This document shows positions 12,186 through 45,192 of a stretch of 45,192 nucleotides of DNA, one piece after another. How positions within the stretch are numbered: the stretch's first letter is position 1; every line of letters begins with the position of its first letter. The position numbers were made by a program, and so were the translations under genes. Under the pieces are notes generated by a model. The model had not been told where the DNA came from, searched no databases, and saw only the letters and a program-made list of their open reading frames with translations. This DNA comes from Magnetococcales bacterium DCbin4 (GTDB taxonomy: Bacteria > Pseudomonadota > Magnetococcia > Magnetococcales > UBA8363), in the NCBI GenBank assembly GCA_002753735.1, contig PEAN01000031.1, positions 1 through 45,192 of the forward strand. Direction: 5' to 3'.

Positions 12186-12915
12186 TTTTTTTCGTTTTCC
12201 TCATACACCTCATCTTGCTTGGTTGGGAAAAGGACAACCCAGAGATGACAAGTTAATACCGCCTGATGAAGCGTTGCAATTTCTGTCAGATGAAGTCGTG
12301 ATCGAAGAAAAACTCGATGGTGCCAATTTGGGAATATCCCTGACGGAAGATGGCAAAGTGCAAATTCAGAATCGTGGACACTATCTTGTTCCACCATTCA
12401 AGGGACAATTTTCTCGCCTCAATACATGGGTTACACCTTACCAATTCCACCTGATGGATTCCCTGGAGCGTCATCTCATCGTTTTCGGAGAATGGTGCAG
12501 TGCCAAGCATTCGCTGGATTATGACGCTTTACCAGACTGGTTTATCGTGTTTGATGTGTATGATAGAAAGCGTAGCAGTTTTTGGAATACTTCCAGGCGT
12601 AATGAGTTGGCAAACATGTTCGGGTTTGCCACCGTTAACCAGATCTCCAAAGGCCGGACGACGATGGAAAAACTTAGAGCACTATTAGACTCACAACCAA
12701 GTGCTTATCGTCAGGGACTTATGGAAGGAATCATCATTCGCAGGGAATCCTCTGAATGGTGTAAAGGCAGAGCAAAATTTGTCCGATCCGATTTTACTCA
12801 GAACATCAATGAACATTGGCAGCGGAACCGTATTGAATGGAATAGAACGTTGATTTGTTCATCATTATCCAATCAAGATCCAGCTTTTTCCACAACCACC
12901 CCCTCAGGAGAATAA
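12178..12915 (+). CDS. RNA ligase family protein (covalent nucleotidyltransferase)
   Basis: The GTG start at 12178 overlaps the end of the PIN gene by 8 nt. The 245-residue product shows the ordered motifs of ATP-dependent RNA ligases: motif I EEKLDGAN with catalytic Lys45, a downstream NRG, motif III VFGEWC (102-107), IIIa FDVYD (125-129), motif IV EGIIIR (183-188) and motif V KGRAKFVR (196-203). Such enzymes adenylate themselves, transfer AMP to a 5'-phosphate and seal RNA nicks. The length suits a minimal Rnl2-like nucleotidyltransferase core with little C-terminal domain. Next to a PIN nuclease it could reseal RNA cut by phage, by a host nuclease or by its partner. The substrate is unknown. 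Confidence 0.85.
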   Translation: MSDFFRFPHTPHLAWLGKGQPRDDKLIPPDEALQFLSDEVVIEEKLDGANLGISLTEDGKVQIQNRGHYLVPPFKGQFSRLNTWVTPYQFHLMDSLERHLIVFGEWCSAKHSLDYDALPDWFIVFDVYDRKRSSFWNTSRRNELANMFGFATVNQISKGRTTMEKLRALLDSQPSAYRQGLMEGIIIRRESSEWCKGRAKFVRSDFTQNINEHWQRNRIEWNRTLICSSLSNQDPAFSTTTPSGE

Positions 12916-19630: not shown

Positions 19631-22600
19631 CTATGGTAATATTATGATATTTGCGTTGGGTATTTCGGCAAACTGTTCCGGGGCATACATCGCTTCCACA
19701 CGGGTCGACGGCAGTTGGAAATCACCCGCATTATTCAACCGCAACGTATATTCCACCTGCCACGTTCCTTTGGGAACCCATTCATAATAGGCACGATAAG
19801 ACTCGAAATTGCGCTCGGTGAACGCAGGCCAGATCGATCCCGAGCTTTGTTCCCCTGCCGTCATGGTCGCTGAATCCTTGCCCAAACCACCCCCCAGGAT
19901 GGAACTTCCCGCAGGGATTGGATCCGCTACCACCACCCAGGTCATGTCCCCCTGTGCTTCCAATTCCAAATGCACCCGGTACACATCACCCCGATGCCAT
20001 TCCCCTTCCCGCTTGCGTTCCACCGCGGTCACCGTCCGTTTCACCCGGTAACCGGCCAATAATGGTTCCGTCAACGGAATTGCTGCACGACTCTCCACCG
20101 TCAGCCAAGGTTTACCTTTTCCTTGGTGCCGAACCCGTAAGGATGCGGTTCCCTGCGGCCAGGGATGCAAAACCTGACCTCCCCTGGGCTGATTTGACCA
20201 GTCGAATTCCTTTTGATCTTCGGCCAATCGTGACGTCGTTGTCCCCGAAACCCGTTCACCCTCGAACACTGAACCAAAACGACGTGCCGCAAGGGTTCCC
20301 CAGGCATTGGCAACACTGGTACTCCAATGTCCTTCCTGTCGCCGGAACAGACTGCCCCGCATCATCCGTCCCACATCCTCCCGCCACCCTTTCTCCTTGA
20401 GTACCGCCAGAATCGCGCGATTGGCATTGACATCGGTTGATACCATCAACCACCAAAAATAATCGCTTGCCTCGGTGGAAAAACTCATGGTGCTTCCGGA
20501 AAAATTCAAACGCGACCGTAGAATGTGCAATGCCTGATCCTTCCGGGCATCGCCTTCGGGCCAATCCTGAACCCGGTTGAGCAAATCGATCCAATCCACG
20601 ACCGTCGAAGTGGGCCACAGGTTGGGTTCAGCCGAAATCGAACCCACAAGCTTGGGATCGATGTGGTCATACCGGGCCAACGCCGCCAAAGCAGCGATAC
20701 GTCGCATGGTCAGATCAGCAGTGGCCAGGGATGAATCCCGGTGGATACGCCCCTCGACAAAAGCCAGTAACCCTTTTTTCATCGAAGCCAAGGGCTTTTC
20801 AGGAATCTTCAAGCCTGCCGTCTCTGCAACAGCCAACAGATAGCTGGTCAGGGTATCGTTGCCCCAGGACATTTGTGGAAAATATTTGAGCAGGCCATCA
20901 CCATCCAGATAGCTGGGCAAGGAGGCGACGATCTTGTCCCACAGTTGCCGGTCTTCCAAAGAAACCGCCTTGGAAATCTGCTGCTCCATACAGGTGTAAG
21001 GATAGCGGAGCATGTATTCACGTACCCCCGTCAACCCGGATGCCAGGCTTGACGTCAAGGAGACGCCGATGCCACCGCGTCCTGGCAAGGCACCCGCGGG
21101 CATGGCCCAATCCATCCGCGTCTCTCCTTCCAATTGGGACAACGTGGATTGAAGAACGCGCACCGGGATTGCTGCCTTGACTTCCTGGGTCACCTTGACC
21201 CGATCCTGGACCCCACCCATATCCGCTTCCACATCCCACGAAAGATTTTCTGATGTGGGAACGGTCACCTCCCAGAATACCTCCTGTGCCTCACCCGGCG
21301 CCAGCGTCACCTTCTGAGCCGGCAGGCTTCCCACCCCTTCCGGTTTGACCAGCGCCCGGACCTTCCCCTGGACCGGTTTTTCCCCCGCGTTTCGGATCGT
21401 GAACCCCGCCCGGAAATGATCTCCCTCCCGAACGACGGGTGGCAGACCGGAAAAAAGAACAACCTCCCGCGATACGCGAATGATCGTCGAACCGCTTCCG
21501 AATAAATCAACTCCCGCCGTGGCAACTGCCATGATGCGAAATGAGGTGATGGAATCATTCAACGGTACCTTCACCCGGGCCATGCCTGAAGCATCAAGTT
21601 TGACACGTCCCTGCCAGAGCAACAGGGTTTCAAACAATTCCCGGGCCGATTTTCGGCCCCCACTGCCCCCCTGGGGAACCGCCTTTCTGCCGAAATGCCG
21701 TCGTCCCACCACCCGCCCCATGGCGGTTGCCGTCTCCACTTCCAAGCCCCGTTCGCTCAGCATCCCTTCCAGCAGTTTCCAACTGTCATTGGGATACAAC
21801 GCCAACAATCCTTCATCGACCGCAGCCAATGCGATTTCACCCCCGGACGGCAAAGGTTTGCCATTGGCACGGTGAACGGTCACCGTGACATCCGCCGTCT
21901 CCCGGGTTTGATAGGCGGCCCGATCCGCTGTCACGCCGACATTCAATTCATAATCACGCCATCCGACCTGTAACTGGGTGATCCCCAAACGCATTGCCGG
22001 TCGCCCCATGTCGATGAGTGCGGTGGGTTGGATTTCGCCTGTGCGCCCACGAACCGCCAAGACCGCCACAAACACATTCGGCCCGTAATTGCCCAGGATT
22101 GGCACGTCGACTCGCGGCGATTGTCCCGAAAGTGGTTGGACAAAGGTTTCCATCACCCCTTCCCGTTCCACGACCACCAGCCCGGTCGCATCCCGAAACG
22201 GCATCCGAACCTGGATAGCTGCCTTTTCACCCGGTTCATAACGCCGTTTTTCCGGAAGCAGGTCCATGCGATCCCCATCCGAAGCACCAAACCAGGTATC
22301 TTCAGTTGTCGGCACCCACAATTCCGTATGGGCATGACCCACATTGCCCCCCTCATCCATCACACGCGCCTGCGCCACCAAACTGCCGGTCCCTGGCGCT
22401 TCCCCTTCGCAGGAAAAGGTCCCCTGTTCATCACTGTTCCCGGAACACCATTCTTTGATCCGGGTCAGTTCATCATGTTGGTCGTAGGAGTAGAATCCAC
22501 CCAACAACCGCTTGCGATGACTGAAGGTTTTGCGTTTGAAGAGTTCCAGGACCACCGGAACCCCTCCCTTGGGCTTGCCGTGAAGATCCACGGTCATGAC

Positions 22601-25600
22601 CTTGACCCGGATCGATTCCCGGGATTGCATCCATCGATCCGGTTTAATGCCCACCACAACCGCCGTGGGCCACAGGTTCATATGGGCCGAAGAGACCATG
22701 ATTTCACCATTGGGATCAAGATATTCCAGTTCAACCAAAAGGCTTTTCGGCGTTTTGACCGTCCCCAGATCACCCAATGTCACACGTCCCCCACCCGCAG
22801 GATCGAGATGGGTGGCAACGACCGGCAGGGAATATGGTTTGGTTGACGCTTCTTCAGTGACCTCTTCGTCATCCCGGGGTTGTTCTCGTGATCGCAGCCC
22901 TTCCTTGATCTCCCCATTGGCCCATTCAAAATCTTCATGATCGGGAAAGGTGACCTTTCGGGTTAAGCGCATCCCCCGAACCTTGACAGGTATGTTGGCC
23001 GCCGGTCCACCTGCAAGATAGTTCACCTGGAGATCAACCTCTGCCCGGGATGGACGCACCAGATCGGTGGCAACCGGTTTGACCAACCCTTGCATGAGCG
23101 GTACCCGGAAAGCCTCGACACGAAAATGGCCACTGGAAACGTTGCCGATGGAAATATCGTAGGTCCCGGGTTTGGCCTCCTTGGGAAGCTCAAACGTACT
23201 CTCAGCACTCCCGAATTCATTCCATGACAGGGGAATGTCATATTCCGCAGACCCACCCGCATGTTGGATCCTGACTTTTCCCGGCAACGATTTTTTATCC
23301 GGCAGGGAAAATCCCCGGCGATCATGGATGCGCATCAGGTGTTTCATGTGGACCGTTTCTCCTGCCCGGAACAGGCTTCGGTCCAACACGGTATGAATCC
23401 GGTAGGGTTTATCCTGATGGTTGCTGGGAAGATTGAAACTGTAGCGTTCGATTCCGTTGTTCCAAGTGGACATGACAAAGGTCACATCCTCTCCCAGGCG
23501 TGCGGCAATCAGGAATGCTCGATCTCCTGTCGGACAATCGGGCAGCGAATAGGGTTCGGGCAATCCCAGTTCAATCTTCAGCAGTCCATCCCGGTCACTG
23601 TTCCCCCGGACAAAGACTTTGCCGTTGCAATCGGAAACGGTCACCTCAGCTCCTGCAACCGGATGACCGCTGTCGAGTTCGGTGACCCAGACCAGAGAGG
23701 ATTCCCGACCGCGAAAAAAGTGCGCCGCCATGTGCGTGACCAACGCCGCGGTTTGCACATGATAGGGTTTGGGAGTGCCATGCAACGCTGCGCCCAGACG
23801 TTGGCTCGCCAATTCAACCACGTAGAAACCCGGTTTGGGCATGGGGATGCCCATGACCTCAAACGCTTTGGCCCCATTGGGTTTGGGCAGGATAAACGTG
23901 GAGAGTGAAGGATGATCGGTGGAAGTAAAGACCGATACCTCACCGATGGCCTGATCGGTGACATTGATTTGTTGTTCCGGATCCCAATGACTTTTCCCCC
24001 ACTGGACTTCATTGATGCGTTTCATCCACCCCGGAAAATCACCGGGATTGACGACCCGGAGCATGCGTCCCCGAATTTCGGACGGTTCCGTGGCAGGGGT
24101 CGATTCATTGATTCGGGGACCCTTTTGTTTCTCTGCCCGGGAGGAGGAAAACTGATTGGGATCCTCTGACACAAACGTTTCCAGATGACGCAAGGTGACC
24201 GGCAAGGCGGGTTCGCCCTTGGCCTCGATAATCCCAAAGCTGGCGGGAAATTTGGCCAAGGGTGGGAGTTCGTCAATGCGAATTTTGAGGGGGAATTCTC
24301 TCTGGTTGACAAGATCACGTCCTGAATCATCCTTGATCCCATTGGGTAATTCCAGGAAAAATTCACTATTTTCAGGAAACGGCTGTGGGAAGTGGATCCA
24401 TTGCACAAATTCGGATTTGGACGATTCATCGTCATCAATCCTGGGCTGGCGGCGTTCACCGGTCCCCTTCAGGACAATCTGTTCCGCCAGCGTCCGCGCA
24501 ATGGGGGCATTGAAATACAATTGCAGGGGACGAATGGGAAGACAGTCGGCATCCTTGTGGGTGCGGTTACAGGAAAAACGGGCCTGAAATGGTTCACGCA
24601 CCTTGAACCGCAATACCTGTTCCTCTTCCGTCGCCACCCCTGAACGGGATTGAACTCCTTTGCCCCAGACCAGACTGACCTCGGTGCCAGGTGGCAGATG
24701 ACGTTTGCATTGCACGGCCGCAAGGGGTGCGCTGGGCGCATCAAGCAATTTGAGGAGGTCGTTTTGATGGCCTTCTCCCTGTTGGACCGATCCCAGATCA
24801 ATGGCCGTTGCGTTTTCGCCCTTGCCCAAGGCACGATCCTGATAATAATCGACCAGATCATCCGCGACCCGGATCAGTGGGGCACGTTCTTCCGGAGTCA
24901 GGAGACGTACACCAATGTTTTCGGCGATTCCCGATATCTGACAGTGGACATGATCCTGAATGGAGGATGGATCGGCAGCAGTATCCAAACCTAGGATAAA
25001 TACCTGTTCCTCATCGATTTCATGATTCCCTTCCGCAGGAAATGCCTGGAGTATGGCCGGGCCCCCGGTTGAAAAGGAAAAATCACCTGTTTGCGCCAAG
25101 GGCTGACCTGCAAGGGTGTTCAATGATTTTTTCAGTGCAAAGGAACAGAGGATTCCGGCAGGGAGATCACGGTCGAAGTCGAAGATCCAGTTCCGGGAGT
25201 CGGCCCACCGCCCTTTCCCTTTCCAGGGACATTGGATGATGAACGGATCATCCAAACGGGGATCCCCCATGGGAACCATGGGATGGGTGAAGCGAACGGT
25301 GACCTGGCGCACCTGTTTGACAACCCCTGTGGGATTGGCCCATTCCACACCCGGGATTGTGTCTGTGGATGAGGCGGTCAGGTCGCGGATACGTTGCTGA
25401 TAGAGGGGGGTCAGGCAGGCAACTGCCGCTTTGGGGTCATCGGGATCCTCCCCCCGTTTGTTGGAAATATTGCAGTGCTGCAAACGTTCGGACAACCATT
25501 GGCGTTGCCCTTTTTGAATGAGATCAACCCGGGCATCACGCGCATTCTTTTTCGCCTGAATGAAGGCGGCACCCATCTCGCCATCAAGACGGGCCAATGC

Positions 25601-25726
25601 CTCATCCTGACAAATCAATGACTCGATCGGCAACCGCGCCCGGTTACAGTCGAACGAGGGGGCTGCATCGGATGGCGTGGAAAAAACGGCCATCAACAGG
25701 AACCATACCCATTGAATCCATCTCAT
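19631..25726 (-). CDS. LprI-domain/alpha-2-macroglobulin family protein
   Basis: The ATG at 25726 was chosen because GGAGG lies about 8 nt upstream and the product then opens with a signal peptide (RWIQWVWFLLMAVFSTPSDAA); the frame is open 24 codons further upstream. The mature N-terminus (FDCNRARLPIESLICQD, then LDGEMGAAF and RQWLSERLQHC) is an LprI/DUF1311-like domain. The rest of the 2031 residues is a bacterial alpha-2-macroglobulin: MG repeats, an MG2-like segment, bait-region-like middle, and a thioester motif CMEQ with Cys near residue 1579, then a TED-like helical domain and C-terminal domain. Such proteins trap proteases in the periplasm, with the Cys-Gln thioester linking covalently to the attacker. 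LprI-like domains include lysozyme inhibitors. The usual partner pbpC is not adjacent. It starts 28 nt after the DAC-like gene and is probably in its operon. Confidence 0.92.
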   Translation of the reverse strand: MRWIQWVWFLLMAVFSTPSDAAPSFDCNRARLPIESLICQDEALARLDGEMGAAFIQAKKNARDARVDLIQKGQRQWLSERLQHCNISNKRGEDPDDPKAAVACLTPLYQQRIRDLTASSTDTIPGVEWANPTGVVKQVRQVTVRFTHPMVPMGDPRLDDPFIIQCPWKGKGRWADSRNWIFDFDRDLPAGILCSFALKKSLNTLAGQPLAQTGDFSFSTGGPAILQAFPAEGNHEIDEEQVFILGLDTAADPSSIQDHVHCQISGIAENIGVRLLTPEERAPLIRVADDLVDYYQDRALGKGENATAIDLGSVQQGEGHQNDLLKLLDAPSAPLAAVQCKRHLPPGTEVSLVWGKGVQSRSGVATEEEQVLRFKVREPFQARFSCNRTHKDADCLPIRPLQLYFNAPIARTLAEQIVLKGTGERRQPRIDDDESSKSEFVQWIHFPQPFPENSEFFLELPNGIKDDSGRDLVNQREFPLKIRIDELPPLAKFPASFGIIEAKGEPALPVTLRHLETFVSEDPNQFSSSRAEKQKGPRINESTPATEPSEIRGRMLRVVNPGDFPGWMKRINEVQWGKSHWDPEQQINVTDQAIGEVSVFTSTDHPSLSTFILPKPNGAKAFEVMGIPMPKPGFYVVELASQRLGAALHGTPKPYHVQTAALVTHMAAHFFRGRESSLVWVTELDSGHPVAGAEVTVSDCNGKVFVRGNSDRDGLLKIELGLPEPYSLPDCPTGDRAFLIAARLGEDVTFVMSTWNNGIERYSFNLPSNHQDKPYRIHTVLDRSLFRAGETVHMKHLMRIHDRRGFSLPDKKSLPGKVRIQHAGGSAEYDIPLSWNEFGSAESTFELPKEAKPGTYDISIGNVSSGHFRVEAFRVPLMQGLVKPVATDLVRPSRAEVDLQVNYLAGGPAANIPVKVRGMRLTRKVTFPDHEDFEWANGEIKEGLRSREQPRDDEEVTEEASTKPYSLPVVATHLDPAGGGRVTLGDLGTVKTPKSLLVELEYLDPNGEIMVSSAHMNLWPTAVVVGIKPDRWMQSRESIRVKVMTVDLHGKPKGGVPVVLELFKRKTFSHRKRLLGGFYSYDQHDELTRIKEWCSGNSDEQGTFSCEGEAPGTGSLVAQARVMDEGGNVGHAHTELWVPTTEDTWFGASDGDRMDLLPEKRRYEPGEKAAIQVRMPFRDATGLVVVEREGVMETFVQPLSGQSPRVDVPILGNYGPNVFVAVLAVRGRTGEIQPTALIDMGRPAMRLGITQLQVGWRDYELNVGVTADRAAYQTRETADVTVTVHRANGKPLPSGGEIALAAVDEGLLALYPNDSWKLLEGMLSERGLEVETATAMGRVVGRRHFGRKAVPQGGSGGRKSARELFETLLLWQGRVKLDASGMARVKVPLNDSITSFRIMAVATAGVDLFGSGSTIIRVSREVVLFSGLPPVVREGDHFRAGFTIRNAGEKPVQGKVRALVKPEGVGSLPAQKVTLAPGEAQEVFWEVTVPTSENLSWDVEADMGGVQDRVKVTQEVKAAIPVRVLQSTLSQLEGETRMDWAMPAGALPGRGGIGVSLTSSLASGLTGVREYMLRYPYTCMEQQISKAVSLEDRQLWDKIVASLPSYLDGDGLLKYFPQMSWGNDTLTSYLLAVAETAGLKIPEKPLASMKKGLLAFVEGRIHRDSSLATADLTMRRIAALAALARYDHIDPKLVGSISAEPNLWPTSTVVDWIDLLNRVQDWPEGDARKDQALHILRSRLNFSGSTMSFSTEASDYFWWLMVSTDVNANRAILAVLKEKGWREDVGRMMRGSLFRRQEGHWSTSVANAWGTLAARRFGSVFEGERVSGTTTSRLAEDQKEFDWSNQPRGGQVLHPWPQGTASLRVRHQGKGKPWLTVESRAAIPLTEPLLAGYRVKRTVTAVERKREGEWHRGDVYRVHLELEAQGDMTWVVVADPIPAGSSILGGGLGKDSATMTAGEQSSGSIWPAFTERNFESYRAYYEWVPKGTWQVEYTLRLNNAGDFQLPSTRVEAMYAPEQFAEIPNANIIILP

Positions 25727-25754: not shown

Positions 25755-27773
25755 TCAGTAGGTACTGATGTAGTCCGGAACCCAGAACACCGCATCATTG
25801 CTGAACGTCATGGCGGATACCGGACCGTCGTGGGACAGGACAAACGCAACTGCCCCGGGATAACGGGCGACGAAATCGACGGCGGAGCCGTGACGGGTGC
25901 CGTATTTGGATCGATCCACGTCGTGTCCAGAGCGTGTACCATCACGGTTATCGTAGAGGACTTGGCCATTCCAGGTATTGGCCGCCAGAATGGCCCCAAA
26001 GGCGATGGGCTTGAGACGATGGGAAATGATCACGGCACCGTCGATCCGGGTCAAATGGGACAAGAATTCGGTATGTTCAATCATGCGCCGCTTGACATCA
26101 AGCAATGCCTGACCGATCGCCTTCAATCCCTGATCATCCGGTGGTGAAACCGAATCACCCAAATTTCTTTTTTTGAGTTCCAATTGACAATATTCATCAA
26201 TAATCTTTGCACCTTCCTGGCTTTCCAACAGGGGGTAACGGTCGATCAAGGATTCCTGTGTTCGAATGGTATATGCCTCGGGCAACCAAATGACGGTTCC
26301 CCCCGTACTGTCTTCGGCAGAACGCCTCAATAGCAACATCAGGATCGACCGATAGATTTCCCAGTACAGTTCTCCCGATGTCCGATATTCGGGGTGAGCG
26401 GAAACGACCTCCATCAGCGTTGAAGCGATGATACAGTTTTCAAAGGGATCCGCGACCGGTTCGGAAAAATGGCCCGACTGGAAATGGGCCAGCATCCTCT
26501 CGCCCCATCGGATGACCAGGGATCCCGTCTTGCGGGTGATAATCGTCAAAACCTGAAGTGGTTCTTGCTGGAAGGGAAAGGGGTCCAACATGCCTCGCCC
26601 ACGGGTACTGGAAAACATCGCGCCCCATATCTCCAGGTTTCTGGGGGCATTGTGTTTGGCACGAACGAACAGTGAGGTGGTGGCGGGATCAAAACCGGGA
26701 CCCAGTTTCACCAGGGAATCGACGGTGAAGGGAACGGGGGTGTCGAAGTGGATGAAAGGAGCATCGAATCCTGGCGTGTTGGAAATCAAGGTTTCATCAC
26801 CCAAGGTAACGCTGACCTTGACCGGCAAATCTTCCTCACGACGCAATCCGGCAAGGAAAACGTTTTCCATGATCGATTTGACATGGTGAAATTCCAGCAG
26901 ACCTGCTCTTTGAGGATGAACCCGATTGACCAGTGCCAGGATCTGGTCGATGATGTGGAAATCAAAGAGGGCCAACCCCTCCTGCCCGCCCAAGGCTTTT
27001 TTCCGTTCGCTGATATCGCGAATGACCGCAGAGAAAAACATTTTTTTCCCGGCGTACCAGTGGGTGATGGAGATTTCCATCGGAAATTCTTCGCGACTCT
27101 TCCGTTGCCCCAATAATTCCAGCAACCGGCCCGACATTTTCATCTTGCCCGTTTCACGAACGCGGTTGACCGCTTCGATATGTTGGCTGGCAAACCGGTA
27201 CGGCATCAACATGGTCAAGGGGCGGCCCAGAACTTCTTCTTTGGTATAACCGAAAATCAATTCGGCACCCCGATTCCAAAAAACGATATTTCCCATACCA
27301 TCGGCGGTGATGATGGCATCGCTCTGGGAGTCGGTTGCGAGGCGGATTTGCTCTTCTTTTTCCCGCAGGGCGAGGAACGAGGCTTTGTGGCGCAGAATAC
27401 GCCGCATTCGTTGTCGGAGCAGATCCCAGTTGATGGGTTTGGAAATATAATCTTCCGCTCCCGCCTGAAACACCCGGTTGATGGCCTCGCCACTGGAAAG
27501 CGAGGTCACGATGATGACCGGGACATCGTCACCTCCCGGAAGGGTTTTGATTTTGCGGCAGGTATCAAACCCATCGATCAATGGCATCTGCGCATCCAGC
27601 AATACCAGATCGGGATGATGTTGCTCAAAGATTTTCAAGCCATCGAATCCATTGTCCGCCAACAGGACGGAAAAATGGTTTTCGCGCAGAAAGGCATCGA
27701 GCAGTTGCAGAATGACGCTGTCATCATCCACAACCAGAATCAGATGGCGATCCTCGTTGATCATGATATCCAT
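25755..27773 (-). CDS. Response regulator-PAS-diadenylate cyclase-like (DAC) protein
   Basis: The 672-residue protein begins with a receiver domain (10-125): acidic D16/D17, phospho-acceptor D60 in LVLLDAQMP, T90 and K112. A PAS domain (about 140-258) ends in VIRDISERKKA. A middle region (about 265-500) is unrecognised. The C-terminal domain (about 565-672) matches DisA_N/DAC: LTRIDGAVIIS (DGA at 578-580), AFGAIL, KYGTRHGSAVDFV (625-630) and AFVLSHDGPVS. DAC domains make c-di-AMP from two ATP. Here the usual RHR is RHG, so activity is uncertain. Phosphorylation of the receiver would plausibly control output. Neighbours: a membrane protein gene 79 nt upstream and the macroglobulin gene 28 nt downstream, same strand. 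A second ATG three codons in is an alternative start. Confidence 0.82.
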   Translation of the reverse strand: MDIMINEDRHLILVVDDDSVILQLLDAFLRENHFSVLLADNGFDGLKIFEQHHPDLVLLDAQMPLIDGFDTCRKIKTLPGGDDVPVIIVTSLSSGEAINRVFQAGAEDYISKPINWDLLRQRMRRILRHKASFLALREKEEQIRLATDSQSDAIITADGMGNIVFWNRGAELIFGYTKEEVLGRPLTMLMPYRFASQHIEAVNRVRETGKMKMSGRLLELLGQRKSREEFPMEISITHWYAGKKMFFSAVIRDISERKKALGGQEGLALFDFHIIDQILALVNRVHPQRAGLLEFHHVKSIMENVFLAGLRREEDLPVKVSVTLGDETLISNTPGFDAPFIHFDTPVPFTVDSLVKLGPGFDPATTSLFVRAKHNAPRNLEIWGAMFSSTRGRGMLDPFPFQQEPLQVLTIITRKTGSLVIRWGERMLAHFQSGHFSEPVADPFENCIIASTLMEVVSAHPEYRTSGELYWEIYRSILMLLLRRSAEDSTGGTVIWLPEAYTIRTQESLIDRYPLLESQEGAKIIDEYCQLELKKRNLGDSVSPPDDQGLKAIGQALLDVKRRMIEHTEFLSHLTRIDGAVIISHRLKPIAFGAILAANTWNGQVLYDNRDGTRSGHDVDRSKYGTRHGSAVDFVARYPGAVAFVLSHDGPVSAMTFSNDAVFWVPDYISTY

Positions 27774-27852: not shown

Positions 27853-28542
27853 TTAACGCATCAATGCCAACTCTAACAGTTCTTCCCGGGAAAAGGGATT
27901 ATTTTTCAGTTCCAATGATAATTTTTCTTCCGTTCCCTGTGAAAAGTATGTGGGATCCGGGGGTTCAGCAACTGATTTCAGCATTTCCGGATCGATTTCC
28001 AGCCAGCTTGAATCAATTTGCTGTGTCAGCGTCGTGTGCGGCGGAGCTTTCAGTTCCAGATTGATGTCCATCAACTCCTGTACCACCGCTACGGTTTCGG
28101 CGGGACCATTCCTGGCCGCCGAGGGGTCTCCAGGTAGGGAAAACTTGAGACCGCTGGAGGATTGCGGCAACCATGAAAGGGTATGGGTCAAACCTGGTCC
28201 TTGCGTTGCATCCGCACGTGAAGGTTGAACGTTCGAGAGTGATTCTGAATGTACATTGCCGTCCAGGGAAAAGTTCATGAAGTTTCGGTCCAGGGCCAGA
28301 CCCGCTTTGGCCGCAATGAGGACCGAAAGGGCCAGCAGCGAAAGTTTTCCCCATGGATAGCGGGAGAAAAAACGGTTGTCGCCCGGTTTGGGAGATGGAT
28401 TCGTGCCCATTGCATCTTGCCGACGGGGAACGGCAACCTCTGAAGTGTGGATGGAATCGTGTTCTTCCCGTCGATCCGTCTGCGCTTCATCATTGTTAAA
28501 GTCAATATTGAAATCAAACTCTTCTATCGTGTTTTCCCTCAT
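27853..28542 (-). CDS. Hypothetical single-pass membrane protein
   Basis: The 229-residue product has an acidic N-terminal cytoplasmic stretch (EEFDFNIDFNNDEAQ), a basic run, one TM helix at about 64-84 (WGKLSLLALSVLIAAKAGLAL) and a low-complexity periplasmic part that becomes helical and acidic near the C-terminus. GAGGTG lies about 6 nt before the ATG. No family was recognised. It is the first gene of the probable operon with the DAC-like regulator and the macroglobulin, so it may be a periplasmic sensor or anchor for them. Confidence 0.7.
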   Translation of the reverse strand: MRENTIEEFDFNIDFNNDEAQTDRREEHDSIHTSEVAVPRRQDAMGTNPSPKPGDNRFFSRYPWGKLSLLALSVLIAAKAGLALDRNFMNFSLDGNVHSESLSNVQPSRADATQGPGLTHTLSWLPQSSSGLKFSLPGDPSAARNGPAETVAVVQELMDINLELKAPPHTTLTQQIDSSWLEIDPEMLKSVAEPPDPTYFSQGTEEKLSLELKNNPFSREELLELALMR

Positions 28543-28732: not shown

Positions 28733-29707
28733 ATGAGTGTTAACCGACCCTGTCCCGGTCCTGATCTGGAAGAATATTGGCGTTATGACCGTCTGATCGA
28801 TTCCTGTGCTCCGGTATCGCCTTTGAGGACGGCCGTCATTCATCCCTGTGATCGTGATTCCCTGTCTGGAGCCATTCAGGCCGCCCAGGCGCATTTGCTT
28901 GAACCTTTGCTGATCGGTCCCGTCGCCCGGATACAGAGTGCTGCCGAGAATGCCGGATTGGATCTTTCACCCTTCAAGATCATCCCTGCCGAACATAGCC
29001 ATCATGCAGCGGAAATCGGCGTCGCCATGGCGTTGTCAGGTGAAGCGGATGCCCTGATGAAGGGAAGTCTGCATACGGATGAAATCATGGGACAGGTCGT
29101 CAAAAAAAATGGGGGATTAAGGACTGAACGGCGCATCAGCCACGTATTTCTCATGGATATTCCCGATTTTTGCCGACCGCTGTTGATCACCGACGCCGCC
29201 ATCAATATCGCTCCGACCCTCGCCACCAAAGTGGACATTTGTCAAAATGCGATTGATTTGGCAATTTCCATGGGGATTTCCAATCCCAAGGTGGCGATTC
29301 TTTCGGCCGTTGAAACGGTCAATCCCGAGATGCAATCAACACTGGATGCGGCGGCGTTATCGAAAATGGCCGAACGTGGCCAGATCGTCGGGGGCATCAT
29401 CGATGGTCCCCTGGCCTATGACAACGCCGTCAGTGTAGAGGCGGCAAAGACAAAAGGGATCAAGAGTTTGGTTGCGGGCCACGCCGATATTCTGGTCGCC
29501 CCGGACCTGGAATCGGGGAACATGCTGGCCAAACAATTGACCTGGCAGGCGCATGCCGATGGTGCTGGCATCGTGTTGGGGGCCAAGGTGCCCATCATTC
29601 TGACCAGCCGTTCCGACAACACCCGTACCCGTCTGGCATCAGTGGCGGTTGCGGCCCGGGTCGTGGATGCCCGCAGAAAAGGGTTGCTGAAAAAGGGACA
29701 CTCCTGA
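28733..29707 (+). CDS. pta: Phosphate acetyltransferase (short PTA/PTB type)
   Basis: The 324-residue protein is a complete PTA_PTB domain without the long N-terminal extension of E. coli Pta. Motifs include LLIGPVARI, ADALMKGSLHTDEIMG, ISHVFLMDIP, LLITDAAINIAPT, KVAILSAVETVNPEM, GIIDGPLAYDNAVS and DILVAPDLESGNMLAKQL. It interconverts acetyl-CoA and phosphate with acetyl phosphate and CoA in the cytoplasm; phosphate butyryltransferase is a related alternative. AAGGAG lies 6 nt before the ATG. The acetate kinase gene follows 100 nt downstream, completing the pathway to acetate and ATP. Divergent from the membrane-protein gene at 28542 with a 190-bp spacer. Confidence 0.9.
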   Translation: MSVNRPCPGPDLEEYWRYDRLIDSCAPVSPLRTAVIHPCDRDSLSGAIQAAQAHLLEPLLIGPVARIQSAAENAGLDLSPFKIIPAEHSHHAAEIGVAMALSGEADALMKGSLHTDEIMGQVVKKNGGLRTERRISHVFLMDIPDFCRPLLITDAAINIAPTLATKVDICQNAIDLAISMGISNPKVAILSAVETVNPEMQSTLDAAALSKMAERGQIVGGIIDGPLAYDNAVSVEAAKTKGIKSLVAGHADILVAPDLESGNMLAKQLTWQAHADGAGIVLGAKVPIILTSRSDNTRTRLASVAVAARVVDARRKGLLKKGHS

Positions 29708-29740
29708 ACCGCAGAGCGATACCATAAGTTTAAGAATGGA

Positions 29741-29771
29741 AAGGGGCTTACAGGATGGTCACCAGCCCCTT
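29741..29771 (+). promoter_or_regulatory. Hairpin between pta and ackA
   Basis: AAGGGGCT (29741-29748) pairs perfectly with AGCCCCTT (29764-29771) around a 15-nt loop, followed by the weakly T-rich GATTTCTTG. It may be a leaky terminator or an mRNA-stabilising stem that sets relative expression of pta and ackA. Confidence 0.35.
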
Positions 29772-29807
29772 GATTTCTTGATCCTGTCAACCTGTCCAGG
29801 AGACCCG

Positions 29808-30980
29808 ATGGATCCCCAGACCATTGCCGTCATCAACGCCGGTTCTTCCAGCCTGAAATTTTCGCTGTTTGAAGTTACGTCATCCGGTCCAGTTCGCCGA
29901 ATACGGGGACAGATCTCCGAGATCAATACGGCCCCGGTTTTTTCCGCCCGCATCGGTAGCCAAACGGCAGCCCGGGAACAAATCCTGGGCGAGGCCCACG
30001 CCGGACACCAACGTTGTCTGCACTATTTATTGGAATGGTTGGGTCAGCACGCTCAGGTTCATGCAGCGGGACATCGCGTTGTCCACGGCGGTTTGGCTTT
30101 CAGTCAGCCGATTGTGGTTGATTCTGCCGCCATCAAGGCACTGGAAGGTCTGATTCCTCTGGCACCTTTACATCAACCGTACAACCTTGAACCCATACGC
30201 GCACTTTCCCGGTTGTATCCGGGATTGATGCAGGTTGCTTGCTTCGATACCGCATTTCACGCAACCAAAAGAAAAGAAGCACGCCGATTCCCCCTGCCCC
30301 GCGCACTTGCCGACGCAGGCATACGGCGTTATGGATTTCATGGTCTGTCCTATGAGTACATTGCCATGAAGCTCAAGGAGGTGGATCCGGTGCTTGCCCA
30401 GGGACGGACGGTCGTGGCACATCTGGGTAATGGCGCCAGCATGTGTGCCATCCATGGTGGGAAAGCGGTTGATTCGACCATGGGGTTGACTGCGGCGGAT
30501 GGTCTGCCCATGGGAACCCGGTCAGGGGCGCTGGATCCAGGTGTTCTTTTATTCATGGCTCGGGAACTGAACATGTCCCTGGAGACCATTGAGGATGTGC
30601 TTTATCGGCAATCGGGTCTGAAAGGGATTTCCGGACTGACCCACGACATGCGTCTATTGGAACAATCGCAACATCCGGGAGCCCGTGACGCCATCGATGT
30701 GTTCGTCTACCGGATTCAACAACAGTTCGGAGCCCTCTGCGCCGTGATGGGTGGCATCGATGGCGCGGTCTTCACTGCGGGAATCGGGGAAAATTCAAGC
30801 CTGGTGCGGCGTCAAACGTTGCGCGGTCTTGGATGGCTGGGTTTTGAACTCGACGATACCGCCAATGCGCAACATGCCACCCGCATCACCACCGCCAACT
30901 CGAACATTCCCGCCTACGTCATCCCCACCGATGAAGATTTGATGATCGCACACCATGTGCAAAACATTCTTGCGGTCTGA
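29808..30980 (+). CDS. ackA: Acetate kinase
   Basis: The ATG at 29808 was chosen because AGGAGA lies 5-6 nt upstream and the product then starts as acetate kinases do (AVINAGSSSLKFSLFE); upstream in-frame codons are not family-like. The 390-residue length is normal. Motifs: GHRVVHGG, CFDTAFH, YGFHGLSYEYI, HLGNGASMCAIHGGKAVDST, TRSGALDPG and AGIGENSSLVR. It transfers phosphate between acetyl phosphate and ADP, making ATP and acetate, or works in reverse to activate acetate. Paired with the upstream pta. Confidence 0.96.
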   Translation: MDPQTIAVINAGSSSLKFSLFEVTSSGPVRRIRGQISEINTAPVFSARIGSQTAAREQILGEAHAGHQRCLHYLLEWLGQHAQVHAAGHRVVHGGLAFSQPIVVDSAAIKALEGLIPLAPLHQPYNLEPIRALSRLYPGLMQVACFDTAFHATKRKEARRFPLPRALADAGIRRYGFHGLSYEYIAMKLKEVDPVLAQGRTVVAHLGNGASMCAIHGGKAVDSTMGLTAADGLPMGTRSGALDPGVLLFMARELNMSLETIEDVLYRQSGLKGISGLTHDMRLLEQSQHPGARDAIDVFVYRIQQQFGALCAVMGGIDGAVFTAGIGENSSLVRRQTLRGLGWLGFELDDTANAQHATRITTANSNIPAYVIPTDEDLMIAHHVQNILAV

Positions 30981-33051: not shown

Positions 33052-36000
33052 TTGGGTCGGTTGGATATTTTGCCCCTGCTGTCGATCCTGATGACGGGTT
33101 TGGTCATTGGTTCCCTGGTCACCCTTCGGGTGATGGGACGGCGTTACTCGACGAAAAAGGTCAAGGAATGCCAAGGGGGCGTTGTGGATCGGGAAATTCA
33201 GCGGCAGGCCGCCATGCTTGCGTTGGTCTTGGATACCATTCCGGTCCGGGTGTTCTGGAAGGATCGGGAAGGACGCTATCTGGGGTGCAACCAGTTGTTC
33301 GCTCTTGATTCCGGACATCAATCCTCTCGTGATCTCCTTGGAAAAACCGACTTGGACATGCCTTGGCGGGAAGATGCACAGGCGTATCGTGCGGAGGATC
33401 AAGAGGTTCTTTCCACTGGCAAGGCCCGGTTGAATTTTGAACGGGTACGCACGACCCGGTCGGGAAATGAGTTATGGCTCAGGACGAGCAAGATTCCCCT
33501 GCCGGGGTTCGATGGGGAAATTCTCGGGATCCTGGGGGTCTACGAGGATATTACGCGGCGCAAGGAAATCGAGGGATGTTTGCGGGAACAGGAAGCCCGC
33601 ATGCGTCTGATCCTCGACAGCGCCGGAGATGGCATCATCACCATCAACAGTGATGGCATCATTGAATCCTTCAACCGGGCAGCCACCCGCCTTTTCGACT
33701 ATTCCGCCTCAGAAGTGATCGGCGAAGATGTCAACCGGCTCATACCCGAATCCTATCGGGTCCTGCACAATGGCTCCATGAAACGATACCTTGAAACAGG
33801 GATCGCCAGCGTCATGGGCACAGGCCGTGAGGTTCAAGGGTTGCGCAAGGATGGCACGATTATTCCGCTGTTTCTCACGGTCAGTCAACTTGAAATCGAG
33901 GATGAACTCCTGTTCATCGGCATCATTCGCGATCTGACCCGCGAAAAGGAAAAGGAAACTGAACTGCTCAAGCTTTCGAGTGTGGTCGAGAACAATCCCA
34001 GTGCCATCATCATTACCGATCTGAAGGGAACCATTGAATACGTCAACCCTCAATTCGTGGAGCTGACGGGGTATGCCGTATCGGAGATCGTCGGCAAGAA
34101 TCCCAGGATTCTCAAATCGGGCAATGATACGGAAAAATACAAGCATCTATGGGCGACCATTCAGTCGGGACAGGTATGGCGGGGTGAATTTCACAACCGG
34201 AGAAAGGATGGCACCCTGTACTGGTCCGGGACCACCATTTCCTCCATTGTTGACAAGGAGGGGAAGGTCATCCGTTATGTCGGCGTATCGCGCGACATCA
34301 CCCAACAAAAGGAAAATGAAGAAAGGGCCAGGGAGGCTGAGAGCCTCAAGGAAAAAAGTGACATGCTGTTGATGTTGTCGCTGGAATCCATCCGGGATGG
34401 TTTTGCCATCTTCGACCGGGACAACCGGCTTGAAATCTGGAACAACGCCTTCCACGAATTGCATGACAAGGTTGCCGATCTGATTGTTGCCGGACGCACC
34501 TATGATGAGATTCTCCGGGCGGCAGTCGAACGGGGGCAGATCACCAAATCGACCGAATATCAAGATCCCCTGCTGCGTGATCGGATGAAGCATTCCGACC
34601 GGCTGATTCAAACCTTCGAGGAAGAATTCAGTGGTCATCGCTGGATTCGTATTTCGGAGAGTCAGATGCCTGATGGCAGCAGTGTGGTGGTCTATTCGGA
34701 CATCACTTCGCTCAAGATCGCAACCTCCGAGGCGGAAGCGGCGGCACGGGCGAAGAGTGAATTCTTGGCCAATATGAGCCATGAAATCAGGACTCCCATG
34801 AATGCGGTTATTGGCCTGTCCCATCTGTGCCTGCAAACCCAATTGACCCACCGCCAGAAGGACTACATTCAGAAAGTCTATAATTCGGCGACTTCTCTGC
34901 TGCGTATCATCAATGACATCCTCGACTTTTCAAAAATCGAGGCGGGTCGGCTGGACATGGAATCCATCGATTTCACGCTGGAGGAGGTGATGGGAAACAT
35001 GGAAGCGGTCATGTCCTTGAAGGCGAAGGAGAAGAAACTTGAATTCCGTCTGGAGACCGCTTCCGACATTCCTCCGAGCCTGGTGGGGGATCCGCTGCGC
35101 CTGGGACAGATTTTGATCAACCTGGTCAACAATGCCATCAAGTTCACTGAAGTCGGACATGTTGCCGTCCAAGTGGAAGTTGTTGAACGGGATGGGAATT
35201 CGGTACGGTTGCAGTTTATTGTCAGCGATACGGGTGTTGGCATGACTCCCAATCAACGGGAACGGTTGTTCCGACCCTTTTCCCAGGCGGATTCATCGAC
35301 CACACGCAAATATGGCGGGACGGGATTGGGGTTGGCCATCACGCGCCGTCTGATCGGATTGATGGATGGCCAGATCCGGGTGGAAAGTGAGTTGAATCTC
35401 GGATCCCGATTCATTTTTGATGTCCGCCTGGGGGTCTCGCAACAAAAAATTGAGAAAAATCTGTTCCCAGGGGTTGGACTGCGGGGATTGAACGTATTGG
35501 TGGTGGATGACAATGAAAGCGCCCGCCTGGTGATTTCTGATTATCTAAACTCTTTTTCATTCAAAGTCACCGAAGCCGGCAACGGTTTGGAAGCCTTGCG
35601 TCTGATTCGGGAGGCGCATGCGAAGGCATCGCCTTTTGCCCTGGTGATCATGGATTACATGATGCCGGATCAGAATGGGATTACGACCGCTTCCAAAATT
35701 CGTTTTGAACTGGGTCTCGATCCCCCGCCATTGATGATCATGGCCACCGCTCATGGTGGAGAAGAGATGGTCAAGGAGGCCATGGACAAGGCGTGTATTG
35801 ATGGCATTCTCGTCAAACCCATCAACCAGAATCTTCTGTTCAACACCATTATGGAAGTGTTTGGTCGGGTGGGGAATGAAAGGGTTCAACCGACACTGTC
35901 CCAGGGGAATTATCGGGATTTCGGAGTTGTATTATCGGGCGCCAGGATATTGCTGGTGGAGGACAACGAAATCAACCGGCAGGTAGCCCGGGAATTGTTG

Positions 36001-37026
36001 GAACAGGCCAACATGACGGTTCTATCGGCGGAGAATGGTCGGATTGCGTTGGAGATTCTGGCCCGCGAACCGGTCGATGGGGTGTTGATGGATGTGCAGA
36101 TGCCGGTGATGGATGGGATTACGGCGACCCGGGAAATCCGTAAGGATTCGCGGTTTGAACATCTTCCCATCCTGGCCATGACGGCCAATGCCATGTCGAG
36201 TGATCGGGAGGAATGTTTGGCGGCGGGGATGCAGGAACATATTTCCAAGCCGGTGGATCCTGGCGAAATGTTTGCCAAGTTGGTGCGATGGGTTGTCCCG
36301 TCGGTTCCCACGCCGATGCCGGTTCAGATGGAGTTTTTCAAACAGGGAGACCAGAACGAACGATTTGAGTTGCCCGATATTCCCGGCATGGATACCCGGG
36401 GTGGATTGCGGCGTATGGGGGGCAATGTTCGTGGTTACCTGGGTCTATTGGCAAAATTCAGCGACAATCAGCGCAGCGTGTGTGACTCCATCAGGACTGC
36501 CTTGGAAAACGACGACACGACGACTGCCCATCGGTTGGCGCATACCCTGAAAGGGGTTTCGGCAACCATTGGAGCCGTGACCTTGAGTGTTCAGGCCAAG
36601 GAACTGGAGTCGGCATTGAGGGCAGGAGAACAGGCATCGCACATACACAGGGAATTGGCGGAAACATCACGACAGGTCGATGTGATCATTGGCGAAATTC
36701 AGCGTGCCCTGACCCGGGTGCAAAAGGAGGCTGCAATTGCCACGGCGCAGGAGGAGACTGATGAACTTGTTGCCGAACGGCATTTATTGTTGAAGCAGGC
36801 GGCCCAGCAGTTGGCCTCCTACGATGCCGAAGTGGAGCAGACGCTTGTTCGGCTCCGTCAAGGACTGATTTCGCAGGCGATGGGGGTTTGGATGGACCGG
36901 ATTGAACGACAGGTCGCGCAGTATGATTTCGAAGGGGCGGCGGCGACCCTCAAGCAGTGTTTTGACAGTATGGGACTTGATTCGGAGGGCAACAGAGGAC
37001 CAGATGTGGCATTGAAACAGCCATGA
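33052..37026 (+). CDS. Membrane hybrid sensor histidine kinase (PAS x4, HisKA, HATPase, 2 REC, Hpt)
   Basis: The 1324-residue kinase has one N-terminal TM helix (about 6-26), then four PAS-type domains (about 53-170, 180-300, 305-430 and 438-560; the last is PAS_7-like). HisKA has His577 in [11 protein letters not shown]. The ATPase domain has N-box [15 protein letters not shown], and GGTGLGLAI. Receiver 1 has phospho-Asp868 (VIMDYMMP), receiver 2 Asp1014 (VLMDVQMP), and a C-terminal Hpt domain His1164 (AHTLKG). This is a BarA/ArcB-type multistep phosphorelay, whose final output would be a separate response regulator. The TTG start is uncertain: AAGG sits 1-2 nt before it, and a second TTG at 33061 has better spacing. 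No stand-alone regulator is adjacent. Confidence 0.93.
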
Positions 37027-37394: not shown

Positions 37395-40220
37395 ATGTTT
37401 TTGGATATGAAAATGAACCAATTGCTTCATCGGATTGATCAGCTTTCACTTCATGCCCGCTTTTATTTCATTATTGGTTTGATTCTGATAATGACTGGAA
37501 TGAATGTCTGGCAAAGTGTGGTGATTCACAACCAGACGATTGCATCGCGGGATTTGGCGTTGATTTCCCAGGTGGCTTCCCATGCGGAAAAGGCGGCCAC
37601 CCTGTTTGGCCGGCAGGTCCAGGAATGGAAAAACACCATTCTTCGGGGCCACCTGGCAGAAGGTTCCATGGAGGAATTTAAATACTATAAACAATTTGGG
37701 GAAATTGAACGTAAGGTTCAAGAAGAGCTGGAGGCGGTCAAGTCCGGGTTTTCCAATTTGCATGAATCGGTGGATGATGTTGAAAAACTCAAGGAAAACC
37801 ATAAGGATCTTGGGGAGAAATACCGTGCTGCCCTGGCCACCCATTACCGGGTGGGTGACATTCAATCCATTCCGCGCACCGACAAGGCGGTATCGGGCAT
37901 CGACCGGCCTACGGCTCAGGGGATGGATGGTCTGGTTGAGAAGATGCGCAAACAGATCGAGCAACTCCATGGTGGTGCGATCCAGGATGCGGATCGAACG
38001 GAACGTGCCCAAGTATTATTGGCACTGATTATTTTTCTCTCCACGGTGATGGGTTTGATTGTGATCATATTGTTTTTAAGGTCCATTCTTCAATCCATCA
38101 ACAAAATCGAAGACAGTGTGGAAATGTTGAGCCGCGGAGAACTGACCCAACGCACCAATGCGGGTTCTGACAACTCATTCGGTCGTATTTTCCGTGGTTT
38201 GGACACCATGGCCGACCAGCTTTCCCATGTCATCAACACGGTGTTGTTGCAGTCGGAATCGGTGATGTCGGTGGTGGATGAAATGGTGCCGTTGAAAACG
38301 TCTTTGCGGAAGGATTCCAATGACAATCACGCCCTGGCGCGCAGCGTGGTGCAGGAAAACGACCGGTTGGATCAGGAAACCCAGGTACTCAACAGCAACA
38401 TTTTGGATGCGGTGGCCAATATTGAAACGGTATCCCTGGCGGCCCAACAGTTGAGCGAAAACGTGACGGCGATTGCTGCCGCATCGGAACAGGCCAGCAC
38501 CAACGTCAACACGATGGCCTCCGCTGCGGAACAGATGACCAGCAACGTTGCCGGAGTCAATTCCAGCCTGGATCAGGTCAATGTATCGGTGGGCAATGTT
38601 TCCCGGTCGGTGGTTGGGTTGACCCGTTCATTGCAATCGGTGCGGGACCGGTGCCAACAGGCGGATGACATGTCGGCGCAGGCGGACAAGAATGCCCAGG
38701 AGTCGATGGATGTCATGAAACGGCTGGCCGTATCCGCGGCAGAAATCGGCAAGGTGGTGGACTTGATCAAGATCATCGCCAATCAGACCAACATGTTGGC
38801 GTTGAATGCCGCCATTGAGGCTGCGGGGGCGGGACAGGCGGGTCTGGGGTTTGCGGTCGTCGCCAATGAGGTGAAGGATTTGGCGCGTCAGACCACCGAG
38901 GCGACCAAGATGATTCAGGAAAAGACCGCCGAGATCCGGGCGCAGGCCCAGGATGCCGCCAAATCCACGCTTGGCATTACCGAGCGGGTTCGGGAGATCA
39001 ATGCCACCAATCGTGAAATCACCGAAGCGGTGGATTTACAGAATCGGGAGGTCAATGGAATTTCCCGGGCCATGGAACAGGTGGGTGCGGCGGCGACGGA
39101 GGTTTCACGCAACGCCCATGAACTGGAAGCGGCATCCCAGGAGGTGGCACGTGCTGCGGTCGAAGCGGCAACCGGTACGCAGGAAATCGCCACTGCCGCA
39201 TCCAATGTCGCCACCAATGGCGCCAAGGTTGCCGCTGAAAGTTCTGCGGCCAGGGATCGCGCCATCAAGGTTCAGGCAGCGGCCCAGGAGATTTTCGCCT
39301 CTTCGACCCAGGTGCAGAAAATGATGTTGCAATCCATGCAACTCAGCCATTATCTGGACGGTTCGGTGGAATATTCGGGCAGATTGACCGAGGTGGTCAA
39401 TGAAACCAGCAATGCATTGAAGATGGCGGTCGGAGGTGTGCGCATTGAACAGGCCCGTTTTGACGTGCGCACCATCAAGCTGGCTCATTTGCAATGGTTG
39501 GGTCGTCTGGAACAGGTGATTCGTGGCCGTACCCTGCTGAAACCCGAAGAGGTTTCCAGTCATAAACAGTGCAAATTCGGGCAATGGTATTTTTCCGAGG
39601 GCCAAACGATCTTTGGTTCCATGGAACTCTATGGCGAATTGGGTGAGGTTCACGAAAAGGTCCATAACACGGCGCGTGAAATCACCGCGATGGTGGCCGA
39701 TGGCAAACATGACCAGGCCCGTGCCAGCATGGACCGGCTCAACGATCTGCGACGGATGATGTTCGAGCTGTTGGACCGCCTTTATCTGGTGCAGGATGTA
39801 GACTCTTCAAACCGACAGATCATGCCCTGGAGCGATAAGTTTTTGGTGAAGATTAAATCGTTTGACCAGGAACACCAACGATTGGTGGCGTTGATCAACG
39901 AACTGTACAACGGGATGAACCGGGGGATGGGGCGGTCCGCCTTGGGGACCATGCTTCAGGAGTTGGTGGATTATACGACGACCCATTTTCAACACGAGGA
40001 AGCCGCTTTTCTCAAAACCGGCTATCCCGAAGCCGAAGCCCACAAGGCGATGCATGCCGGTTTTGTGGATCAGGTGTTGGCATTCCAGAAACAATTCAAC
40101 GAGGGTACTGCCTTCATTGACATGAAACTGGTCAAGCTGTTGCGCGAATGGTTGATCGACCACTTCCTGGTGACTGACAAAGCCTATTCGGCCCACCTGC
40201 GCAAGGGTGGCATCCGGTAG
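37395..40220 (+). CDS. Chemoreceptor with CZB and bacteriohemerythrin domains
   Basis: The 941-residue receptor has TM1 near residues 21-41, a periplasmic helical domain, TM2 near 208-230 ([21 protein letters not shown]), HAMP, and a signalling domain with tip [20 protein letters not shown] (from about 465). After it comes a CZB-like zinc-binding module (about 695-790: [29 protein letters not shown]), then a bacteriohemerythrin domain (about 808-935) with di-iron ligand motifs [26 protein letters not shown] and [10 protein letters not shown]. Hemerythrin domains bind O2 at a di-iron site, and CZB domains sense zinc or hypochlorite in other receptors, so oxygen or redox taxis is the likely role. 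Two C-terminal sensors on one receptor is notable. The start lacks an obvious Shine-Dalgarno. Confidence 0.92.
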
Positions 40221-40529
40221 GGCGTGCGCGACGTGGCGATGATGCGCTGACGTGTTGACATTCAAAAAAATTATTGAAAGAAAAAAGGGGTCTGGGGGAT
40301 TGCCCCCAGGGTGTTGATTTTGTTTTTTAATTTAAACAAAAAGTTTTCCATGTTCCGCTTTTGACTTTGTTTTTAGAATCAAAGTCCTGGGGGCAATCCC
40401 CCAGACCCCTTTTTTCTTTTAATGATGATCATTGCCTTCGCTCCATACAGATGATGATGATGGTCCATGACGAACCGATACCGGTCATAGTATTATTCCA
40501 TGAAGATGATCCCTTCATGGAGCATGTTC
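40221..40529. other. Intergenic stretch filled by a palindromic repeat
   Basis: No gene. Most of it is a copy of the dispersed repeat. The remaining AT-rich part (about 40421-40529) would hold the promoter of the NACHT gene, with GGAG at 40519-40522 as its ribosome-binding site. Confidence 0.6.
40254..40420. repeat. Dispersed palindromic repeat with perfect 34-bp arms
   Basis: The arms 40277-40310 and 40386-40419 are perfect inverted repeats of 34 bp. Each arm contains its own hairpin, CTGGGGGATTGCCCCCAG (7-bp stem, ATTG loop). On the plus strand the right arm is followed by CCCCTTTTTTCTTTT, so it may also act as a bidirectional terminator between the two genes. The outer TTAATTCTAC ends present in the complete element at 18748 are missing. 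Confidence 0.8.
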
Positions 40530-45039: not shown

Positions 45040-45192
45040 GGCCCACCCCAATCGGTCAATGAATACACTTCAGGCTGGAGCATAGATGATAACAAGATTG
45101 GAATCATGGGACGCCATATGGATCTCCCGAGATTTCCGGTAGTGCGTCACCGACATTCCCCCGGCATTTCAACCGATGGTCGTGCGGCTGGG
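45040..45192. other. Region upstream of the TIR-FGE gene to the window edge
   Basis: No gene is visible. It should contain the promoter of the minus-strand TIR-FGE gene. No clear motif was chosen. Confidence 0.3.

Follow-up and report, generated by a model that had tools for sequence, protein, structure and literature searches.

A gene of a Magnetococcales genome was found to encode a receiver (REC), a PAS domain, a DACNV domain and a C-terminal diadenylate cyclase (DAC) domain in one protein, and we consider it probable, at roughly 60%, that this protein is an active, phosphorylation-controlled diadenylate cyclase acting as a two-component output. The nucleotide c-di-AMP is essential in many Gram-positive bacteria and has been little studied in Pseudomonadota. 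The open literature searched held no description of a diadenylate cyclase being itself a response regulator, no relevant paper on the DACNV domain or on c-di-AMP among magnetotactic bacteria, and no biochemistry of any DACNV-DAC protein; a 2015 comparative-genomics paper reportedly named such DAC-associated domains. The window referred to below is the whole stretch of 45,192 nucleotides that was analysed, and the coordinates of the features discussed are given in Table 1.

Results

Gene and domain organisation

Both N-terminal domains claimed by an earlier note on this DNA were recovered by Pfam, and the conserved residues of the receiver (D16/17, D60, T90 and K112) are all kept, as they are among the receivers listed. 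The best PDB match of the receiver is PleD. The same note had left a middle domain of about 235 residues unassigned and guessed at a DAC-associated sensor; the guess was borne out by the match to Pfam DACNV (PF21751, 47.7 bits against a cut-off of 27), but the region is not a single domain and comprises DACNV together with the N-terminal half of a DAC fold beginning at about residue 447. The Pfam DAC profile (PF02457) matched residues 569–654 with an E value of 0.0025 and 17.9 bits, under its 27-bit cut-off. The profile search that the note had proposed as a check thus stayed below threshold for this protein, while three other DACNV-bearing members reached the cut-off with the two domains as neighbours in frame, and the fold match was clear. 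Two of these three are RHR-bearing members from outside Magnetococcales. When the first 22 relatives were aligned, Pfam reported DACNV in 22 of 22 and a weak DAC match in 21. By Pfam the protein is a member of the DACNV-DAC family, and it has the DAC fold; it scores below the PF02457 cut-off and lacks the strict RHR motif.

The frame is not a chance one, as intact orthologues with 76–85% identity were found in six congeners. In comparison with one congener (L002), the differences were distributed as 87/43/329 over the three codon positions and synonymous codon changes (276) exceeded non-synonymous ones (100), which points to strong purifying selection on the gene. Translation may in fact begin at Met4 (27764), the position at which the orthologues start.

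Table 1. Positions in the window of the diadenylate cyclase-like gene, its domains and motifs, and the adjoining genes.
Feature	Position	Strand	Remarks
REC-PAS-DACNV-DAC gene	25755–27773	minus (27773 to 25755)	single open frame, 672 aa
Receiver domain, residues 12–123	27405–27740	minus	PF00072, E 1.1e-28; D16–D18 acidic pocket, D60 phospho-acceptor, T90, K112
PAS domain, residues 141–258	27000–27353	minus	PAS_9 at 152–256, E 2.4e-15; haem PAS of FixL/DosP closest
DACNV domain, residues ~272–438 (Pfam core 296–385)	26460–26960	minus	PF21751, E 1.8e-12; model pLDDT 87
DAC (diadenylate cyclase) domain, residues ~447–671	25761–26435	minus	model pLDDT 88; 40 DAC entries at Z 10.2–13.5
DGA motif, D578-G579-A580	26034–26042	minus	D and A in 67/67 homologues
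GTRHG, residues 625–629, where GTRHR is expected	25887–25901	minus	G, R and H in 67/67; fifth residue variable
S647-H648-D649, counterpart of (V/I)SEE; D649 at the metal-binding Glu position	25827–25835	minus	S and D in 67/67
Gene upstream (229 aa, a single predicted transmembrane segment)	27853–28542	minus	no Pfam match; adjoins the DAC gene across the genus
Phosphate acetyl/butyryl transferase	28733–29707	plus, divergent	PF01515, E 8e-44; matching place in L045, L046, L047 and L107
Acetate kinase	29736–30980	plus, divergent	PF00871, E 2e-110; conserved alongside the transferase
Bacterial alpha-2-macroglobulin gene	19631–25726	minus	Pfam A2M, bMG3, bMG10; directly downstream

The C-terminal region and its active site

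A DACNV-DAC profile run against PDB sequences returned chance matches only and no DAC, and so a comparison of folds was needed. The AlphaFold model of residues 262–672, built from 50 homologues, had a mean pLDDT of 88. With this model the top 45 Foldseek matches were all DAC structures (E 1e-3 to 4e-2), and VIA-align placed 40 solved DAC entries at Z 10.2–13.5, the next fold following at 4.4. The top VIA-align match was DisA (Z 13.5 over 132 residues, rmsd 2.6). The model thus shows the DAC fold for the C-terminal region, in agreement with the earlier assignment of a DAC with DGA and GTRHG motifs.

According to a review, the ATP site of Listeria CdaA is formed by the side chains of L31, D71, T102, R103, H104, S122 and E124, the last binding the metal, in addition to main-chain contacts (PMC7288161). 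The counterparts of D71, T102, R103, H104, S122 and E124 are D578, T626, R627, H628, S647 and D649, an equivalence taken from motif alignment and not from coordinate superposition, and a GALI-like strand, GGTVI, lies at residues 491–495. D578, G625, R627, H628, S647 and D649 were invariant in 67 of 67 homologues, T626 was kept in 57 of them, and the homologues with these invariant catalytic and metal positions extend to an identity of about 25%. In place of SEE the protein has SHD; the Ser is kept and the metal-binding Glu is replaced by Asp in all 67, which leaves a carboxylate that may still bind the metal. An outright loss of metal-binding residues, which the earlier note had named as a ground for refutation, was not observed.

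The replacement of the canonical RHR by RHG was also seen as claimed, and variation at the second Arg proved to be common to the family in general. The position is Gly629 here and mostly N, A, T, S or G elsewhere, with H, I and K also occurring, and Arg is kept only in the homologues of Methylobacter and Nitrospira. This second Arg is not among the ATP contacts listed for Listeria CdaA (PMC7288161), and RHG alone is therefore no argument against activity. In M. tuberculosis DacA, the change of RHR to AAA, which alters all three residues, abolished ATP binding and activity, and the second Arg alone was not mutated (PMC3328451). A decayed enzyme was rejected as the main explanation of RHG, as this position varies family-wide and the other catalytic positions are fixed.

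A possible resemblance of DACNV to the DAC fold

When DACNV was modelled alone (pLDDT 87), the top 33 structural entries were all DACs, with Z 6.0–8.0 and then a fall to 2.7, and in the model its strand order fits the DAC sheet with a loop replacing the RHR helix. Foldseek with the DACNV model gave no DAC among its best 50 matches, and no significant sequence link between DACNV and DAC was obtained by hhalign (P 0.12–0.16) or by Pfam and PDB searches. In the best alignment, which is non-significant, the canonical SEETG region falls opposite the strand 'VLTIITRKTGSLVI' of DACNV, in keeping with the fold prediction. As Z values of 6–8 may reflect a common arrangement, we hold it at about even odds that DACNV, a "probable sensor" in Pfam, is a degenerate DAC.

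Putative components of c-di-AMP metabolism in Magnetococcales

The presence of DACNV and of the PgpH-type c-di-AMP hydrolase was surveyed in 398 Pseudomonadota genomes, 48 of Magnetococcales and 350 others. DACNV was found in 43 of the 48 and in none of the 350, and the PgpH 7TMR-HDED domain (PF07697) scored over its cut-off in 46/48 and 1/350, respectively; the Magnetococcales genomes without DACNV or without PgpH are mostly incomplete. No DAC of the CdaA or DisA type was detected across the Magnetococcales sampled, the host genome included, and DACNV-DAC is the only putative c-di-AMP synthase family detected in nearly all Magnetococcales genomes. The search of the genome for a c-di-AMP phosphodiesterase suggested by the earlier note yielded a PgpH-type gene flanked by phoH and ybeY and complete in its 7TMR-HDED, 7TM and HD domains. 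The note's view that c-di-AMP is uncommon in proteobacteria stands in part only, as a DAC match (E ≤ 0.001) was present in 82 of the 398 sampled genomes, mostly of one family.

Outside Magnetococcales, an independent comparison gave a mixed picture: PgpH was found in 7 of 17 genomes, mostly drafts, that carry a solo DACNV-DAC, and five of these seven, from Desulfobacterales, had no DAC over the Pfam cut-off. The co-occurrence with PgpH rests largely on one order and shared ancestry could explain it. The c-di-AMP riboswitch RF00379 was absent from 41 Magnetococcales genomes searched, and a shallow search identified no c-di-AMP receptor in the order. DHH-DHHA1 proteins are universal and hence uninformative as an indicator of the pathway.

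Other DAC-like genes were seen in the course of the survey. A Pseudomonadota family (f18, L135–L152) nearly always carries a canonical CdaA-type DAC and PgpH was not found in it; its c-di-AMP hydrolase, if any, would be of a non-PgpH kind. Two genomes, G030 (L169:3847–4923) and G037 (L170:4494–5447), encode short DAC-like proteins of 317–358 aa that are distinct from DACNV-DAC and have the motifs GARHAT or GGRHAS, and SQDGP. The gene in L169 adjoins those of an AAA ATPase and of a protein of 510 aa that matches no Pfam family, in what looks like a separate cassette, perhaps one for defence; PADLOC names no DAC there.

Distribution of the family and origin of the REC-PAS form

The host genome, a metagenome-assembled genome (MAG) of Magnetococcales, contains three DACNV-DAC paralogues. 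Two are of the REC-PAS form, the second being encoded on contig C21 and 41% identical to the window protein, and the third, on contig C61, has a GAF domain and an RHT motif. The relatives in named records are from Magnetococcales, which are magnetotactic Pseudomonadota. Other families of the order mostly have one solo DACNV-DAC of about 415–450 aa, and solo forms were also found in Desulfobacterales, other deltaproteobacteria, Methylobacter and Nitrospira. A tree built from 74 sequences grouped the REC-PAS proteins into one clade of 23 (SH-aLRT 100), itself nested among solo forms. The GAF form also fell on one side of a branch, with a weak support of 61. The tree was a quick one that contains several long branches, and its finer branching is unsure. 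On this tree the fusion of REC-PAS to DACNV-DAC arose once, and the single, fully supported clade indicates that it has persisted through divergence and duplication.

An operon conserved across orders was not found, the neighbours of DACNV-DAC differing by lineage. A transpeptidase gene directly after DACNV-DAC in a deltaproteobacterial record (L097) and a zinc-type ABC transporter near it in Desulfobacterales were not counted as functional evidence.

Receiver and PAS inputs and the neighbouring genes

No histidine kinase gene adjoins the DAC gene in the window, and a hybrid histidine kinase is encoded at 33052–37026, about 5 kb away. The small upstream protein measures 224–254 aa in several congeners; by analogy with CdaR for CdaA, it is a candidate membrane partner. 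The upstream, transferase and acetate kinase genes are conserved in several congeners and missing from this place in another (L048). As the transferase and acetate kinase genes adjoin the DAC gene in several congeners, acetyl phosphate is suggested as a possible phosphodonor for the receiver.

The best solved relatives of the PAS domain are the haem sensors FixL (E 3.4e-16) and DosP. The column of the FixL proximal His holds His in the clade of the window protein and its sister group and has lost it in most C21-type paralogues, while the column of the distal Arg that serves O2 holds Leu in the window protein in an ungapped alignment to FixL. Haem binding by the PAS domain is thus a lead from sequence comparison.

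The alpha-2-macroglobulin, which has an N-terminal LprI (lysozyme inhibitor) domain, starts 28 bases past the stop of the DAC gene; it was rejected as a partner, as it is not conserved in the genus and other genes follow in congeners. Elsewhere in the window, the plus strand carries an incomplete giant frame (3–8684), truncated at the start of the window, which codes for at least 2893 aa and includes seven bacterial cadherin-like repeats; a row of genes (10361–12915) for an AAA/DUF3696 ATPase, a 180-aa protein that matches no Pfam family and a protein with an RNA ligase domain, possibly a small mobile or defence cassette; and a chemoreceptor (37395–40220) that combines a CZB (zinc-binding) domain with a haemerythrin domain at its C-terminus, plausibly an oxygen or redox taxis receptor. 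A NACHT and FGE-sulfatase protein (40500–43559, plus strand) and its neighbour, a TIR and FGE-sulfatase protein (43771–45051, minus strand), recall candidate conflict or defence proteins.

Discussion

In the mechanism that we propose, D60 of the receiver would obtain its phosphoryl group from a histidine kinase or from a small donor molecule, for instance acetyl phosphate, and the PAS domain would supply a second input. Through helical linkers, receiver and PAS may alter the contact between the C-terminal DAC domains of two subunits; these domains, paired head to head, would join two ATP molecules into c-di-AMP, as other DAC enzymes do. DACNV, possibly a degenerate DAC-like fold, may position or inhibit the catalytic domain or bind nucleotide, and the separate PgpH-type 7TM-HD enzyme of the same genome would hydrolyse the product.

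The protein shares with CdaA/DacA of L. monocytogenes, B. subtilis and S. aureus the DAC fold (Z about 10–11), the DGA and G-T-R-H motifs, the Ser and the metal carboxylate. The sequence identity is only about 15–20%, and CdaA is membrane-anchored with RHR and SEE, whereas the protein described here has receiver, PAS and DACNV on the N-terminal side of its DAC, and RHG and SHD in place of those motifs. DisA of T. maritima and M. tuberculosis, the best fold match, is likewise soluble with its DAC joined to other domains, but the C-terminal DNA-binding part by which it senses branched DNA has no equivalent here. Closer kin are the solo DACNV-DAC proteins (PF21751) of Magnetococcales, Desulfobacterales, Methylobacter and Nitrospira, which have the same two halves with the same variant motifs; they lack receiver and PAS, are about 400–450 aa long, and in Methylobacter and Nitrospira carry RHR. 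The GAF paralogue shares the DACNV-DAC module and differs in its GAF input and RHT motif. In wiring, the protein resembles the response-regulator diguanylate cyclases PleD and WspR, in which a receiver governs a cyclic dinucleotide synthase working as a pair, although their output is a GGDEF domain that makes c-di-GMP and has a fold unrelated to DAC.

An unlikely alternative is that the DAC domain has lost catalysis and acts as a sensor binding ATP or c-di-AMP, which would make the protein a nucleotide-sensing response regulator. The missing second Arg, the SHD in place of SEE and the sub-threshold DAC score all speak for this, but the catalytic and metal positions are invariant in all 67 homologues, a constraint not obviously expected of a domain that merely binds nucleotide, and Magnetococcales have no other common DAC to supply c-di-AMP and yet keep PgpH. 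An active enzyme with another product, such as a mixed or other cyclic dinucleotide or a linear dinucleotide, seems improbable to us. A motif change kept across the whole subfamily could shift specificity, and RHR belongs to the phosphate-binding part of the site; however, the contacts to base and ribose lie in other motifs, the ribose-binding Asp71 of CdaA and a GALI-like strand have their counterparts here, and the hydrolase that would act as partner is of the c-di-AMP family PgpH.

The least probable of the readings weighed accepts c-di-AMP synthesis and places its control mainly with PAS and DACNV, the receiver being a dimerisation module. It would account for the lack of an adjacent histidine kinase gene and agrees with the kinship of the PAS domain to haem oxygen sensors, the proximal His being kept in this clade. 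Against it, the phospho-acceptor residues are intact in all the receivers listed, orphan response regulators are common, and genes for acetate kinase and a phosphotransacetylase-family enzyme lie next door in several congeners. An active diadenylate cyclase under phosphorylation control remains our preferred interpretation. More tentatively, and with less confidence than an even chance, c-di-AMP signalling in Magnetococcales may run on a non-canonical enzyme family, a tandem of a degenerate, DAC-like DACNV and an active DAC, with one clade placed under two-component control and possibly under oxygen sensing by a haem PAS.

The protein is of interest for its direct two-component wiring and because an entire order probably depends on this divergent cyclase. 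The DACNV-DAC family bears on whether a DAC can dispense with the second Arg of RHR and on whether the "sensor" DACNV is a pseudo-cyclase. If the protein is active, it would link an environmental signal to c-di-AMP by a defined route, much as PleD does for c-di-GMP, and c-di-AMP signalling would extend to the whole magnetotactic order through a motif variant that falls below standard domain-search thresholds.
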